From the NCBI GenBank assembly GCA_019635535.1, contig JAHBZH010000001.1, forward strand, positions 1,950,995 to 2,014,994: 64,000 nucleotides of DNA, read 5' to 3'. The position numbers and the translations under genes were made by a program. Shown piece by piece: positions 26,093 through 32,957 of this stretch. The notes beneath the pieces were generated by a model. It was not told the origin of the DNA and did no database searches. It was given only the letters and a program-made list of their open reading frames with translations. The number at the start of each line of letters is the position of its first letter. Positions within the stretch are counted from its first letter, which is position 1. This stretch comes from Sphingomonas sp. Its GTDB lineage: Bacteria > Pseudomonadota > Alphaproteobacteria > Sphingomonadales > Sphingomonadaceae.

Positions 26093-26563
26093 ATGGCGGA
26101 TCCCCTCGCCTATCGCCCCGCGGCGGGCGTGATGCTGATCAATCCGGCCCGACAGGTCTGGGTCGGCCAGCGGCTCGATTCGACGCTTGAGGCCTGGCAA
26201 ATGCCGCAGGGCGGGCTCGACGAGGGCGAGGCCCCGCTGGCGGGCGCGCTGCGCGAGCTGGAGGAGGAGACCGGCATCCGGCGCGATCTGGTCGAACTCA
26301 TCGCCCAGGCGAAAGGCGAGCTGACCTACGATCTGCCGGACGAGCTGGTCGGCAAGCTGTGGAAGGGCAAATGGCGCGGCCAGCGGCAAAGCTGGTTCCT
26401 GATGCGCTTCAACGGCACCGACGCGGATGTGAACCTCGCCACCGAACATCCCGAATTCCGCGCTTGGCGCTGGGTGGCGCCGGTGGAGCTTCCGGCCTTG
26501 ATCGTGCCGTTCAAGAAGAAGCTTTATGAAGATGTTCTGGATGCCTTCTCCGACTGGTTGTGA
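26093..26563 (+). CDS. rppH: RNA pyrophosphohydrolase (Nudix)
   Basis: 156-residue Nudix hydrolase that removes pyrophosphate from 5'-triphosphorylated mRNA and starts its decay. The Nudix box is GGLDEGEAPLAGALRELEEETGI, preceded by WVGQRLDSTLEAWQMPQGG, and the C-terminal WRWVAPVELPALIVPFKKKLYEDVL matches RppH. The start at 26093 has GGGAGACAGG just before it; the longer frame to 26018 lacks one. It lies 19 bases before a DUF481 gene. Confidence 0.95.
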   Translation: MADPLAYRPAAGVMLINPARQVWVGQRLDSTLEAWQMPQGGLDEGEAPLAGALRELEEETGIRRDLVELIAQAKGELTYDLPDELVGKLWKGKWRGQRQSWFLMRFNGTDADVNLATEHPEFRAWRWVAPVELPALIVPFKKKLYEDVLDAFSDWL

Positions 26564-26582
26564 AATTCCGAGGTTTTTTGAG

Positions 26583-27569
26583 ATGATCGTTCGCACCCTC
26601 CTGGCCACCCTGCTGATCGTCTACGCCGCCCCTGCCCTCGCGCGCGGCGACGTCGATCCGCCAGTCGCGGTGCAGATCGAGCCGGCGGCAGCAGCAGCCG
26701 AAGAGGCGCCGGCGGCGGAAGAGGAGCAGGAGCCGCAATTGCCGCCGACCGTGCAGCAGATGGTCGACGACGCCTTCGCCACCGGCAATGACGCGGAGAT
26801 CGCGGCGGTGGTGAAGTTCGCCCGACGCGCGCATCCCGAATTCGCCGGGGAGCTCAACGCCCGGCTCGCGGCGCGCAACGAGGAGCGGCAGGCGGCGCGG
26901 CAGACCCGGCTCGCCCGGCGCGGCGTGCTCGAAAACTGGTCTGGCCGCGGCGAAATCGGCGCCTCGCGCACCTCGGGCAATGTCGACAATCTCGGCATCT
27001 TCGCCTCGCTCAATGCGACGCGCGAGGGGCTGCGCTGGCGCCATCAGGTCCGCGCCAGCGCCCAGATCCAGGAGATCAACGGCTTCCGCACCCAGGAGCG
27101 GCTGCTGCTGACATACGAGCCGCACTACAAGGTGAACGAGCGGCTTTCGACCTATGCGCTGCTCCAGGCGGAGCGCGATCCGCCGCTCGGCTTCGACGGC
27201 CGTTATTCGGCCTCGGTCGGTCTCGGCTATGCGCTGGTGAAGACGCCGCGCTTCAACGTCGACCTCCAGGGCGGCCCCGCCTTCCGTCACACCGAATTCA
27301 CCGACGGTTTCAACGAGGACACGATCTCCGGCCGTGCCGCCCTCGATGCGCGGCTGCGCCTGCGTCCCGGCGTGACGCTGACGCAGACCGCATCGGCCTT
27401 CATCGATTCCGGCAGCAACACCTTCACCTCCGCGACCGGTCTCGAAACGCAGATCATCGGCGCGTTGTCGGCCCGGCTTTCCTACAATCTCCAATATGAG
27501 AGCGAGCCGGTGCCCGGCCGCGTCTCGACCGACACGCAGAGCCGCGTCACGCTCGTTTACGGTTTCTAG
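26583..27569 (+). CDS. DUF481 family outer-membrane-type protein
   Basis: 328 residues with a signal peptide (IVRTLLATLLIVYAAPALARG), an acidic Ala/Glu/Pro region at about residues 25-60, and a C-terminal domain built of alternating strands: GEIGASRTSGNVDNLGIFASLNATREGLRWRHQVRASAQI, YALLQAERDPPLGFDGRYSASVGLGYAL, ending with RVTLVYGF. This is the DUF481 beta-rich fold, predicted as an outer-membrane barrel of unknown cargo. The start at 26583 follows GAGG about ten bases upstream and lies just after the rppH stop. Confidence 0.88.
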   Translation: MIVRTLLATLLIVYAAPALARGDVDPPVAVQIEPAAAAAEEAPAAEEEQEPQLPPTVQQMVDDAFATGNDAEIAAVVKFARRAHPEFAGELNARLAARNEERQAARQTRLARRGVLENWSGRGEIGASRTSGNVDNLGIFASLNATREGLRWRHQVRASAQIQEINGFRTQERLLLTYEPHYKVNERLSTYALLQAERDPPLGFDGRYSASVGLGYALVKTPRFNVDLQGGPAFRHTEFTDGFNEDTISGRAALDARLRLRPGVTLTQTASAFIDSGSNTFTSATGLETQIIGALSARLSYNLQYESEPVPGRVSTDTQSRVTLVYGF

Positions 27570-27612: not shown

Positions 27613-28821
27613 ATGCAATCGCTGGACGCACAGGAACGGGCCGCAATCACGCGCGCCGCCGATGCGCCGATGCTGGATCAGGTCATGGCCTGGTCCGCGA
27701 TCAACAGCGGCTCGCGCAATCTGGACGGCCTGGCGACCATGGCCGGCCTGCTCGCCGACTCCTTTTCCGTGCTGCCGGGCGAGCTGGCGCTGTTCGATCC
27801 GGCGCCGGTCGAGGCGATGCTGCCTGACGGGGCGCTGCGGTCGGTGCCGCATGGCCGCAACCTGCATCTGAGGGTGCGGCCCGAGGCCCCCGTCCAGCTC
27901 CTCTTCACCGGCCATATGGACACGGTGTTCGGCGTCGATCATCCCTTCCAGACCGTCTTCTGGCGCGAGGAAGGCGTGCTCGGCGGACCGGGCGTCGCGG
28001 ACATGAAGGGCGGCATCGCGGTGATGCTCGCGGCCCTGCAGGCGATCGAGGCAGTCGGCGCACCCGGGCTCGGCTATGAAGTCGTCCTCAACAGCGACGA
28101 GGAGGTCGGCTCGCCCGGCTCGGGGGCGTTGATCGCGGCGGCGGCGCGCGGCAAGGCGGCGGCCTTGACCTACGAGCCCTCCGCCCTCCCCGACGGCACC
28201 CTTGCCGGCGCGCGGCCGGGCAGCGGCAATTTCTCGATCCGGATCACCGGCCGTGCCGCCCATGCCGGGCGCAATCCGGAGGAAGGCCGCAACGCGCTGC
28301 TGGCCGCCGCCGATCTCGCGCTCCGGCTGGCCGCCGGCAAGCGCGACGGGCTCAGCGTCAATCCGGCGAAGATCGACGGCGGCGGGCAGAACAATGTCGT
28401 GCCGGACCATGCCGTACTGCGCGTCAACCTGCGCCCCCGCTCGCCGGAATTACAGGCCGCGGCGCAGGCTTTGCTCGACGACAGCATCGCGGCGGTCGCG
28501 GCTGCGCATGACGTTTCCGTCCACGTCCATGGCGGCTTCGCCCGCGCGCCCAAGCCGCTCGACGACAGGGCGCTTGCCCTGTTCGGGCTCGTAAAGCGCT
28601 GCGGCGCCGATCTCGGCCAGGACATAGACTGGCGTGACACGGGCGGAGTGTGCGACGGCAACAACATCGCCGCCTGCGGCGTGCCGGTGGTGGATACGAT
28701 GGGGGTGCGCGGCGGCGCGATCCATTCGGACCAGGAATTTCTGATCGCGGCCAGCCTGGCCGAGCGCGCGCAATTGTCCGCGCTCACCATCTTGCGGCTG
28801 GCCAAAGGGGAGGGTTTGTGA
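27613..28821 (+). CDS. M20-family zinc peptidase/deacylase coupled to astA
   Basis: 402 residues of the M20/M25/M40 aminoacylase-type family. The metal ligands are seen in FTGHMDTVFG (His, Asp), LGGPGVADMKGG (Asp), NSDEEVGSPGSG (catalytic Glu pair) and IHSDQEFL (His). The dimerisation domain has GRAAHAGRNPEEGRNAL. The stop overlaps the astA GTG, so the three-gene unit M20-astA-astB is one operon. A role in removing the succinyl group or trimming arginine-derived N-acyl compounds is inferred from context. Confidence 0.9.
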   Translation: MQSLDAQERAAITRAADAPMLDQVMAWSAINSGSRNLDGLATMAGLLADSFSVLPGELALFDPAPVEAMLPDGALRSVPHGRNLHLRVRPEAPVQLLFTGHMDTVFGVDHPFQTVFWREEGVLGGPGVADMKGGIAVMLAALQAIEAVGAPGLGYEVVLNSDEEVGSPGSGALIAAAARGKAAALTYEPSALPDGTLAGARPGSGNFSIRITGRAAHAGRNPEEGRNALLAAADLALRLAAGKRDGLSVNPAKIDGGGQNNVVPDHAVLRVNLRPRSPELQAAAQALLDDSIAAVAAAHDVSVHVHGGFARAPKPLDDRALALFGLVKRCGADLGQDIDWRDTGGVCDGNNIAACGVPVVDTMGVRGGAIHSDQEFLIAASLAERAQLSALTILRLAKGEGL

Positions 28822-29837
28822 GCTTCAGGGTGCGTCCGGCGAAAGCCGGGGATTTCCAGGCGATCTACGAAATGGCGAAGCTGACCGGCGGCGGCTTCAC
28901 CAATCTGCCCGCCGACAAGGGCACTCTGGTCGCCAAGCTCGCCCGTTCCGACAACGCGCTGGCGCGGACCGAGGACAGCGCGGAAGGCGACCTGTTCGTC
29001 TTCGTGCTCGAAAATGCCGAAACCGGCCAGATTCGCGGCACCTGCCAGGTGTTCAGCCGGGTCGGCATCCGCGAGCCCTTCTACAGCTACCGGGTCAGCA
29101 CGCTCACCCAGACCTCGCCGGAACTGGGCCGGACCTTCCGCGCCGAGATGCTGACGCTCTGCACCGATTTCGAGGGGAGCTCCGAAGTGGGCGGCCTGTT
29201 CCTCCATCCGAACGAGCGGGCCGGCGGGCTCGGCGTGCTGCTGGCGCGCAGCCGCTACCTGTTCATCAGGCTCCACCGTGCCCGCTTCGCCGACAAGGTG
29301 CTGGCCGAATTGCGGGGCGTGATCGACGAGGCCGGCGGCTCGCCCTTCTGGGACGCGATCGCCGGGCGCTTCTTCGGCATGACCTTCCAGGAGGCCGACA
29401 GCTTCAACGGCGCGCACGGCACCCGCTTCATCGCCGATCTCATGCCCAAGACGCCGATCTACACCGCGATGCTGCCGGAAAGCGCGCGCGCGATCATGGG
29501 CGTCCCCCACCCCTCCGGCCGCGCCGCGATGCGGATGCTGGAGCAGGAAGGCTTCACCGGCGACGGCTATGTCGACATTTTCGACGGCGGCCCGACCATG
29601 GCCGCCGCGACCGACAATATCCGCACGATCCGCGAGGCGCGCCAACTGACCTTGAGCGAGATCGGCGAAGCGCCGGACGCGATCCGGATGATGCTCGCCG
29701 CCGGCGACCGGCGCGATTTCGCCGCCGGCTATGGCAAGGTCGCGATCCGGGACGATGGTTCGGCGACGCTGGACGCGGCCAGTGCCGCTCTGCTTGGGCT
29801 GGAAGTGGACGACGCCTTCCTCGCCGTTGGGCGCTAG
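28818..29837 (+). CDS. astA: arginine N-succinyltransferase
   Basis: 339-residue acyltransferase, the first step of the arginine succinyltransferase route: it moves succinyl from succinyl-CoA to arginine. The N-terminus FRVRPAKAGDFQAIYEMAKLTGGGFTNLP and the middle ...EVGGLFLHPNERAGGLGVLLARSRYLF... are characteristic, with the GNAT acetyl-CoA site within. The GTG start (28818) overlaps the M20 gene stop, with GGGGAGGG before it. It is 3 bases ahead of astB. Confidence 0.94.
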   Translation: MSFRVRPAKAGDFQAIYEMAKLTGGGFTNLPADKGTLVAKLARSDNALARTEDSAEGDLFVFVLENAETGQIRGTCQVFSRVGIREPFYSYRVSTLTQTSPELGRTFRAEMLTLCTDFEGSSEVGGLFLHPNERAGGLGVLLARSRYLFIRLHRARFADKVLAELRGVIDEAGGSPFWDAIAGRFFGMTFQEADSFNGAHGTRFIADLMPKTPIYTAMLPESARAIMGVPHPSGRAAMRMLEQEGFTGDGYVDIFDGGPTMAAATDNIRTIREARQLTLSEIGEAPDAIRMMLAAGDRRDFAAGYGKVAIRDDGSATLDAASAALLGLEVDDAFLAVGR

Positions 29838-29840
29838 GCC

Positions 29841-31094
29841 ATGGCGCTGGTCGAGATCAATTTCGATGGGATCGTCGGGCCGACCCACAATTATGCGGGG
29901 CTGAGCTTCGGAAATCTCGCCGCCACCGCCAACAAGGGCGAAACCGCCTATCCCCGCGCCGCCGCGCTGCAGGGGATCGCGAAAATGCGGCACAATCTGC
30001 GGCTCGGGCTCGTCCAGGGTCTGCTGCTGCCGCACCGCCGGCCGGATCATGATTGGCTGGCCTCGCTGGGTACCAGCGCGGAGCAGGCGTCGGACACGCT
30101 GCTCGCCGCCGCCCTCTCCGCCTCGTCCATGTGGGCGGCCAATGCGGCGACCGTCTCCCCGGCCCCCGATACGGCGGACGGGCGTTGTCACCTGACGGTC
30201 GCGAACCTCAATACGATGGCGCATCGCAGCCACGAATGGCCGGAGACGCTGGCGCAGCTCCGCCTCGCCTTTGCCGACGCGGCGCATTTCGCCGTCCATC
30301 CGCCCGTCCCCGCCACCTTCGGCGACGAGGGCGCGGCCAATCATATGCGCCTCGCCGCGCATCACGGCGCGCCGGGCGTGGAGGTCTTCGTCTATGGCGT
30401 GCGCGGCGGCGCCTTTCCGGCGCGCCAGCATGTCGAGGCGAGCCGGGCGCTGGCGCGGCTGAACCGGGTCGATCCGCGGCGCAGCCTGTTCGTCGCCCAG
30501 TCCGAGGAGGCGATCGCCGCCGGCGCCTTCCACAACGATGTCGTGGCCGTCGCCAACGAACATGTCCTGTTCGCCCATGAGCAGGCCTTCGCGAACAAGG
30601 ACAGCTTCTACGCCGACTTGCGGCGCCTGCTGCCTGAGGTCGAGATCGTCGAGGCGCCGGCCAGCCTGGTCAGCCTCGAAGACGCTGTGAAATCCTATCT
30701 CTTCAACGCCCAGCTCGTCAGCCTGCCCGAAGGCGGCATGGCTTTGGTGCTGCCCGAGGAGGCACGTGAAACGCCGCGCGTCTGGGCCTGGCTGGAACAG
30801 ATGGCCGCCGGCAACGGGCCGATCCGCCGGCTCGCACTGGTCGATGTGCGCCAGTCCATGGCCAATGGCGGGGGCCCGGCCTGCCTGCGCCTGCGCGTCG
30901 TCGCCGATCCCGCCACGGTCGATTCCCGCTTCCTGGTCGATGAGACGAAGCTGGACGCGATCGCGGCGGTGATCGCCGAGACATGGCCCGAGGCGGTCGC
31001 GCCCGACGGTCTCGTCGATCCCGCCTTGTGGGCACGCGCGGCCGAGGTACGCGGCGCGCTGCTCGATCTGCTGGGTCTTTCCGAGCTGGCCTGA
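29841..31094 (+). CDS. astB: N-succinylarginine dihydrolase
   Basis: 417 residues. The opening MALVEINFDGIVGPTHNYAGLSFGNLAATANKGE is the AstB signature, with the catalytic-region GDEGAANHMRLAAHHGAPGVEVF and the HNDVVAVANEHVLFAHEQAF segment (His and Asn/Asp of the guanidine-modifying fold). It hydrolyses N2-succinylarginine to succinylornithine, CO2 and ammonia. astC, astD and a typical AstE are not in the window, so the rest of the pathway would be encoded elsewhere or by the M20 gene upstream. Confidence 0.96.
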   Translation: MALVEINFDGIVGPTHNYAGLSFGNLAATANKGETAYPRAAALQGIAKMRHNLRLGLVQGLLLPHRRPDHDWLASLGTSAEQASDTLLAAALSASSMWAANAATVSPAPDTADGRCHLTVANLNTMAHRSHEWPETLAQLRLAFADAAHFAVHPPVPATFGDEGAANHMRLAAHHGAPGVEVFVYGVRGGAFPARQHVEASRALARLNRVDPRRSLFVAQSEEAIAAGAFHNDVVAVANEHVLFAHEQAFANKDSFYADLRRLLPEVEIVEAPASLVSLEDAVKSYLFNAQLVSLPEGGMALVLPEEARETPRVWAWLEQMAAGNGPIRRLALVDVRQSMANGGGPACLRLRVVADPATVDSRFLVDETKLDAIAAVIAETWPEAVAPDGLVDPALWARAAEVRGALLDLLGLSELA

Positions 31095-31145: not shown

Positions 31146-31331
31146 ATGCCCGCCAAGTCCGCCGCCCAGCAAAAGGCCGCCGGCGCCGCTCTGTCCGCCA
31201 AGCGCGGCGACACGCCCAGGAGCAAGCTCAAGGGCGCTTCCAAGTCGATGGTCGAATCGATGAGCGAGAAGGAGCTTGAGGAGCTCGCCTCCACGAAGCG
31301 CAAGGGCAAGCCCGAGCGCGTCGGGAACTAG
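31146..31331 (+). CDS. DUF3008 family small basic protein
   Basis: 61 residues, MPAKSAAQQKAAGAALSAKR at the start and MSEKELEELASTKRKGKPERV at the end, rich in Lys, Ala and Ser. This matches DUF3008, a family of small hydrophilic proteins of unknown function common in alphaproteobacteria, perhaps stress-related. It has no partner gene next to it: astB ends 51 bases upstream. The ribosome site lies in a palindrome. The last four bases overlap the convergent caspase-like gene. Confidence 0.9.
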   Translation: MPAKSAAQQKAAGAALSAKRGDTPRSKLKGASKSMVESMSEKELEELASTKRKGKPERVGN

Positions 31332-32881
31332 TTCGCCGGGCGGTTCAGCCGGACGATCACGTCGTCGATATGGACGCCGCCGCGCTCGATCAGCAGGTTC
31401 TGGTAATTGCGCTCGTCCTCCCGCGTGGTCGCCGGAATGTCGCCCTCCACGCGGAAACGGCGGCGGACATAGGTGGACAGCTCGCCCGCCGTGACGATCC
31501 CGTCGCCGTCGTCGTCCGCCTCGCCGGTTATGCCGGCGCGCAGGAAATAGGACAGGAACCCGCCCGCCTGGAAACGGCTGGCGACGAGGCTGGTGAGATC
31601 CTCCTCCGAGCTGAACATGCCGACCACGTTCGGCCGGTCGACCAGGCTGCGGAAGCCGCCCGCATAGCAGGCGTCGATCACCAGCAGCGACATGCGCGCC
31701 TGCACGCTGGCGAAGAGCGGCGCCAGCTCGCTGTCGCGCATCGCCCTGTCATAAAGTTCGATCGTTTCCGCGCGCCCGTCCAGTTCAGCCGCACTGACGT
31801 CCACGTCGATCTGATCGCCATGGCCGGAAAAGAGGAACAGGAACAGGTCCTCCGGTCCGGCCGCAGCGGCGATGCGGCGGAAGGCGTCCGACACGCTTTT
31901 GCGTGTCGCCTGCGCGTTGGTGAGCGCGACGCTGGCCGGATGGAGCAGGCCGGCTTCGCGCAGGTCCGCATAGAGCTCGGATGCATCGTCGTCCGTGTTC
32001 GGCAGGTTGGAGGTGCGGCCGCCATAATCGGCCACGCCGACCGCCAGGGCGATCACCCGCGGCCCGCCCGGCACGTTCGCCTGGCGCGCCAAGCCGGGAC
32101 TCCGCTCCAGGGTCAGACGATATTCGCCCGCCGCACGCGGCAAGAAGCTCGTCGCCACGATCACATATTCGCCGTCCTCCGGCAGCACGACGTCGATCCG
32201 GCTGTCGGTCGATCGCGCGCCTTCGATTCGGCCGTCGTCGTTGAAATCCTCCGTGCCGTCGGGGTGGCGGAGCGCCAGATAGGTGTCGAGCTTGGCCGAT
32301 CGCATCTCGATCCGTACCCGCTCGCCGCGCCGTGCGGTGAAGCGGTACTGATCGGCATAATGATCGGCTTCGCGCCGTCCGTCGCGCGCCTCGAGGCGGC
32401 CGTTCACGCTGGCGCCGAGCTGGATCGCGGCGGCCGGCGGCGGCCGATCGATCGCCGCGTCCGCCGGCGGCGTGGCGGCCGACAGGCGATAGACGCCCGT
32501 CTCGCCCGGCCGGAAGGAGGTGACGGAGATGCGGTAGGTGCCGTCGGACGGCAGCTCGACGACGAGCCGGCTGTCCAGTCCTTCGCCGCCGTCCGCGTCA
32601 TCGTTGATGAGGTTGAAGCCGTCCGGGCCGGTGACCAGCAGGAAGGCATCGAAATCGGAGGAAGAAAGTCGCAGATCGACGCGCTGCCCACGCCGTCCCT
32701 GCAGGACATAGACATCCTCGAACTTGCCGGAGCGGCGGCGGACATCGCCCTGGGCGAGCGTGCCGTCCACGCTTTGCCCGGAGGCGATCGCCACCGGCGC
32801 AGGCCCCGCGCTGTCCTGCGCATACGCCGGCGACAGGCCAAGCGACAAAGCCGCCGCGACGATGAAACCCCAACGCGTCAT
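31328..32881 (-). CDS. secreted caspase-like (C14) protein with PPC repeats and EF-hand
   Basis: 517 residues. Residues 1-21 form a signal peptide (FIVAAALSLGLSPAYA). Two beta-rich pre-peptidase-C-like repeats follow at about 30-135 and 150-258 (each with GxYRxSVTSF/GEYVIVATSF-type strands). A caspase/metacaspase domain spans about 274-450. It has the catalytic histidine His354 in FSGHGDQ and the cysteine Cys405 in IDACYAGGF. Near the end, residues 456-467 give a textbook EF-hand calcium loop (DDDGDGIVTAGE). It is predicted to be periplasmic or exported. The substrate is unknown. The start at MTRWGF is chosen for the signal peptide. Confidence 0.85.
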   Translation of the reverse strand: MTRWGFIVAAALSLGLSPAYAQDSAGPAPVAIASGQSVDGTLAQGDVRRRSGKFEDVYVLQGRRGQRVDLRLSSSDFDAFLLVTGPDGFNLINDDADGGEGLDSRLVVELPSDGTYRISVTSFRPGETGVYRLSAATPPADAAIDRPPPAAAIQLGASVNGRLEARDGRREADHYADQYRFTARRGERVRIEMRSAKLDTYLALRHPDGTEDFNDDGRIEGARSTDSRIDVVLPEDGEYVIVATSFLPRAAGEYRLTLERSPGLARQANVPGGPRVIALAVGVADYGGRTSNLPNTDDDASELYADLREAGLLHPASVALTNAQATRKSVSDAFRRIAAAAGPEDLFLFLFSGHGDQIDVDVSAAELDGRAETIELYDRAMRDSELAPLFASVQARMSLLVIDACYAGGFRSLVDRPNVVGMFSSEEDLTSLVASRFQAGGFLSYFLRAGITGEADDDGDGIVTAGELSTYVRRRFRVEGDIPATTREDERNYQNLLIERGGVHIDDVIVRLNRPAN

Positions 32882-32957
32882 ACGCACACCCCCCAACCCG
32901 CATCGCGATAGATGCCGGGCCGCCATGAAGGAAGGCTGAATTCAGTGGAAAAAGAAA

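Follow-up and report, generated by a model that had tools for sequence, protein, structure and literature searches.

A predicted M20-family succinylglutamate desuccinylase in the AstE-less arginine succinyltransferase pathway of a Sphingomonas genome

We analysed a 64,000-nucleotide window from a Sphingomonas sp. genome (contig JAHBZH010000001.1), in which a gene for an M20-family zinc hydrolase lies at the head of astA and astB, two genes of the arginine succinyltransferase (AST) pathway. The M20 protein is very probably an N-succinylglutamate desuccinylase that ends an AST pathway lacking AstE, as a non-orthologous replacement of that enzyme. We favour this reading because the protein is found with AstA and AstD and never with AstE, is part of complete AST operons, and in its catalytic residues and nearest relatives resembles an enzyme of the carboxypeptidase G2 (CPG2) type. 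In the proposed route AstA would succinylate arginine, and AstB, encoded by the next gene, would yield succinylornithine. The single ArgD/AstC-type transaminase of the genome and a distantly encoded AstD would then yield succinylglutamate, and the M20 zinc hydrolase would release succinate and glutamate from N-succinyl-L-glutamate, the reaction of AstE carried out by a protein of another family. The assignment of N-succinylglutamate as the substrate is drawn from genomic context, and the direction of flux and the use of the ArgD-type protein as AstC are likewise presumed. The system is a variant of a known pathway and not a new kind of system.

Distribution of the M20 family and of AstE

The genome was nearly complete (2.75 Mb, 99.8%) and was searched for the remaining AST steps; scores are given below as bits/cut-off where two values stand together. 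It contained one AstA, one AstD over the cut-off (623.4/579.3, G000:C1:1140817-1142196, minus strand, 0.84 Mb from the window) and a single match to the ArgD/AstC profile (463/410), whereas AstE had no match anywhere in the genome by profile TIGR03242 or domain PF24827. With AstB, all steps of the pathway up to succinylglutamate, counting the transaminase as AstC-type, were thus represented and AstE was not. The original prediction had described the rest of the pathway as missing locally, which is true at the locus itself; other parts of the genome, however, supply astD and a gene of the ArgD/AstC type. Its proposal that the M20 enzyme replaces the usual desuccinylase could have failed on a normal astE elsewhere, and none was detected by the two models. 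We discarded the view of the ast genes as a relic, since the genome has astD and the ArgD-type gene.

The M20 protein is a member of NCBIfam NF005602 (553.6/357, equivalog cut-off, residues 4-400), a family whose name gives no substrate and for which one is proposed here. A scan of 398 genomes of the phylum, in which the best four first-look candidates per genome were scored, placed NF005602 over its cut-off in 36 genomes (37 copies). AstA was found in 114 of the 398, including all 36 with NF005602. Within the window's own class 34 of 36 AstA genomes carried NF005602 and none of the 36 had a full AstE match, while outside this class NF005602 occurred in only 2 of 78 AstA genomes (G204 and G304). 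AstE was searched for in 79 of the 114 AstA genomes, comprising the 36 with NF005602, the two own-class exceptions and 41 others taken one per genus. TIGR03242 matched at E <= 1e-79 in all 41 genus representatives, and a full match was present in none of the remaining 38. AstD exceeded its cut-off in 78 of the 79 genomes, the miss being G063, and the 36 genomes with NF005602, the present one included, all had it. This disfavours the alternative offered by the original prediction, that the operon serves something other than the classic pathway.

The second set consisted of 95 genomes from the order of G304, with all first-look candidates scored except in G439 (16 of 18). AstA was present in 31 of them, NF005602 in 10 and AstE (E <= 1e-56) in 20; the latter two were confined to AstA-bearing genomes and never occurred together, and one AstA genome (G448) had neither. 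As the two sets overlap by seven AstA genomes, 103 AstA genomes could be combined, of which 45 had NF005602, 55 had full-length AstE, 3 had neither and 0 had both. No NF005602 genome without AstA was encountered (36 of 36 in the phylum and 10 of 10 in the order of G304, G304 being in both). One of 14 control genomes was over the NF005602 cut-off, and the control Caulobacter vibrioides had AstA and no AstE match. In a genome of just 1.1 Mb (G118), AstA, AstD and AstE were clustered on a single contig, which is unusual for a reduced genome.

Several observations weigh against the replacement of AstE by the M20 protein. The Fisher test of the exclusion of the two enzymes (p = 5e-26) ignores kinship, so that the independence of the genomes is overstated, and the phylum scan may have missed a second-rank NF005602 in an AstE genome, although the fuller scoring in the G304 order gave a concordant result. 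Weak partial AstE matches were seen in 2 of the 38 genomes without a full match (G127, 1.4e-7; G303, 1.2e-4; both with NF005602) and in 7 of the 10 NF005602 genomes of the G304 order (best 6.2e-9, 36.6 bits, cut-off 305.65). Both enzymes were absent from three AstA genomes (G063, G355 and G448), and five of 46 NF005602 copies did not adjoin astA (G147, G304, the second copy of G214, G477 and G415). In the window's genome the ArgD-type protein was nearest to acetylornithine transaminase and fell under the AstC model TIGR03246 (409/610), and for this reason its role as AstC can only be presumed. An arginase-family protein was also encoded (G000:C1:242364-243170, locus L139, 152.8 bits), so that the genome possibly holds a second arginine route besides AST. 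As for the exceptions, the G355 locus (L087) contained astD-astA only and the G063 locus (L088) only an aminotransferase-like gene beside astA. Because neither stretch of 14-16 kb held an astB or M20 match, these two genomes say little on the exchange of M20 protein and AstE.

Gene order around NF005602

Genes were typed against six query proteins in 37 stretches around 37 NF005602 copies and in exception and control loci. Of the 46 copies of NF005602 (45 genomes), 41 immediately precede astA in the same orientation, 37 of these within 50 bp by hidden Markov model coordinates, and the M20-astA arrangement is therefore more than chance. Among the loci typed together in this comparison, the two controls L089 and L090 contained AstE and the others did not. 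That the M20 protein is an ordinary peptidase brought into the operon by happenstance appears negligible as an explanation: nothing speaks for it but the database name 'hydrolase', whereas most copies adjoin astA and no NF005602 genome without AstA was seen among those examined.

Six loci contained the M20 gene and all four other AST steps on one strand. The order was astC-M20-astA(-astA)-astD-astB in L086 (G204), L111 (G435), L112 (G465) and L117 (G422), M20-astC-astD-astB-astA in L056 (G214), and M20-aminotransferase-astA-astD-astB in L043, from a metagenome-assembled bacterium, where the aminotransferase match was weak (59 bits). The M20 protein of L043 shares no more than about 42% identity, which would fit an ancient replacement or one that was transferred between distant lineages. 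The L043 operon adjoins a large ATPase/kinase-like gene. The same five-gene set was present in L114 (G412) with a 2.1 kb gap following astC, and L081 (G304) had astC-M20-astD-astB with astA elsewhere. NCBIfam models confirmed the M20 protein and transaminase of L086, L056 and L081, as well as AstA, AstD and AstB of L086. Among 20 loci matched by the M20 protein AstA was adjacent or near in 15; in L033, L038, L039 and L046 it was not nearby, and AstA was found elsewhere in their genomes (8 of 8 genomes queried). L047 was dropped as an unrelated weak match, with 32% identity over part of the protein. G214, a member of the window's family, carried two NF005602 copies and three AstA matches (L055, L056 and L057) in three groups: the M20-astA-astB unit of the family type, the second and complete operon M20-astC-astD-astB-astA, and an astA-astD-astB group that has no M20 gene.

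The complete operons also bear on a possible scavenging role, in which the M20 enzyme would have other N-acyl arginine or N-acyl amino acid compounds as its substrates and another hydrolase would substitute for AstE. Further M20 hydrolases are common (matches at E <= 0.001 in 381 of 398 genomes, and at least four M20 matches in this one), and any of them could be promiscuous. The scavenging role is nevertheless very improbable: in the genome sets examined NF005602 alone tracked the lack of AstE, and complete AST operons have it as their fifth gene.

In the window's own family the M20-astA-astB genes stood without astD nearby in 16 of 17 AstA genomes; G268 had M20-astA-astD-astB, a common order in the other families of the class. 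The separation of astD from this unit would suit a short route from arginine to ornithine, in which AstA and AstB are followed by cleavage of N2-succinylornithine into ornithine and succinate by the M20 enzyme, and AstC and AstD are bypassed. ArgE acts in a similar way when it deacylates acetylornithine, and the M20 relatives do include acetylornithine deacetylases. We nevertheless regard it as quite improbable. Because AstD is kept and full-length AstE is missing in all 36 NF005602 genomes of the phylum, some enzyme must clear succinylglutamate; moreover, the M20 gene stands with astC and astD in complete operons, and the nearest structure is that of a glutamate-releasing enzyme and not of ArgE. 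A reading in which the M20 protein is a two-substrate desuccinylase, opening succinylornithine too, is unlikely. It is tied to the window's family, where astD is separate from the M20-astA-astB unit; the operon would then be an energy-linked arginine-to-ornithine shunt, able to change over from complete breakdown to the supply of ornithine and back.

Family, conserved residues and fold of the M20 protein

The proposed role of a succinylglutamate desuccinylase was compared with the family and structure of the M20 protein. Both Peptidase_M20 (PF01546, 79.7/24.6) and M20_dimer (PF07687, 59/21) were over their cut-offs and, with the di-zinc ligand and catalytic set also present, the protein is an M20 metallohydrolase. 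Its Pfam matches were limited to M20-type domains and one weak M28 match, with no AstE_AspA domain. AstE (TIGR03242), for which the same reaction and pathway position are proposed, is of a different family characterised by AstE_AspA (PF24827), and is never alongside NF005602 in the 103 genomes. The second-best family was glutamate carboxypeptidase NF004788, under its cut-off (174.9/349). The DapE/ArgE desuccinylases and deacetylases share the M20 fold, and DapE likewise removes a succinyl group, but the protein was far under their curated cut-offs (TIGR01246, 49.8/361.8; TIGR01892, 60.9/297.7; TIGR01900, 86.2/304.2) and their Z scores were lower than that of CPG2. The best named relative was from Sphingosinicella sp. 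YJ22 (76%).

H101, D103, D130, E163, E164, E188 and H371 were invariant at the 95-97% level in alignments of 57 and 66 members, in which the window protein is counted twice. This set aligns with the zinc and catalytic residues of CPG2, whose metal and catalytic roles and numbering we assume and transfer through the alignment. H217, N261 and R274 align with CPG2 His229, Asn275 and Arg288, lid residues discussed in PMC6271292. The same paper gives Glu in M20 aminoacylases and carboxypeptidases and Asp in dipeptidases at one metal-ligand position; E188 occupies it, a Glu of the aminoacylase/carboxypeptidase type. R220, K314, C347 and T362 were present in 66 of 66 family rows, versus 0, 2, 0 and 0 of 19 paralogues under the cut-off, and a tree set the 66 rows apart from these paralogues (support 0.954 and 1.0). 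One guess is that a substrate carrying three carboxylates would be well served by the additional basic residues.

CPG2 cleaves the N-acyl bond and frees glutamate from N-acylglutamates. It was the best sequence match among solved structures (1.7e-32), and it led the fold matches of the AlphaFold2 model (mean predicted local distance difference test score 95.0) in the PDB: the CPG2 entries (1cg2, 6xj5) gave Z of 44.4-44.8 with a root-mean-square deviation of 3.4-3.5 over 380-381 residues, the next entry reaching Z 36.4. Foldseek gave the same leading match. CPG2 is thus the closest solved relative by sequence and fold and shares the metal and catalytic residues, but identity in the structural alignments is just 26-27% and the M20 protein does not reach the cut-off of NF004788. 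A fold shared between a predicted model and CPG2 shows no function by itself.

The locus and the significance of the replacement

The M20, astA and astB genes are arranged head to tail on the plus strand (Table 1). The overlap of the M20 gene with astA by a GTGA junction, reported in the original prediction, was confirmed. The purine-rich AAAGGGGAGGG was read by eye immediately 5' of the overlap, and the M20 and astA genes are probably translationally coupled. The start of astB follows the astA stop after three bases. AstA and AstB are clear by Pfam and pass the broader NCBIfam models but fail the stricter equivalogs: AstA was over the TIGR03243 subfamily cut-off (351/284) and under TIGR03244 (301/391), and AstB passed NF009789 (540.6/452) and missed TIGR03241 (437/538). 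Scans for promoters and terminators returned nothing above shuffled sequences. A DUF481 gene in the same direction ends 43 bases upstream of the M20 gene. From downstream a caspase-domain gene converges on the ast operon; its product is secreted-looking and combines a pair of PPC domains with a domain of the caspase-like type (Peptidase_C14). Another caspase-like gene, recognised only on reading its translation by eye, is situated some 4 kb from astD (L027 3764-4606, minus strand).

Table 1. Coordinates of the ast operon and its neighbours in the window
Feature	Position	Strand	Remarks
DUF481 gene	26526-27569	+	
M20 zinc hydrolase gene, NCBIfam NF005602 (PRK07338.1, 'hydrolase')	27613-28821	+	402 amino acids; proposed N-succinylglutamate desuccinylase
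GTGA overlap	28818-28821	+	astA start (GTG) and M20 gene stop (TGA)
astA, arginine N-succinyltransferase	28818-29837	+	339 codons from GTG; PF04958, 418 bits
astB, N-succinylarginine dihydrolase	29841-31094	+	PF04996, 574 bits
Caspase-domain gene	31328-32926	-	

No report of an M20 succinylglutamate desuccinylase was found in an open-access library, including passages of PMC7311316, PMC9007349 and PMC6271292; subscription papers, preprints and curated websites were outside this scope, and priority is not established thereby. If the proposed function is true, the AST pathway would be closed in a large bacterial group where annotation shows its last step missing, and the replacement would be visible within a second order too (NF005602 in 10 genomes versus AstE in 20). 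It would also provide a substrate for a family named merely 'hydrolase' by NCBI, and would be a clear example of a well-known pathway in which the usual enzyme of a single step has given way to an unrelated one.

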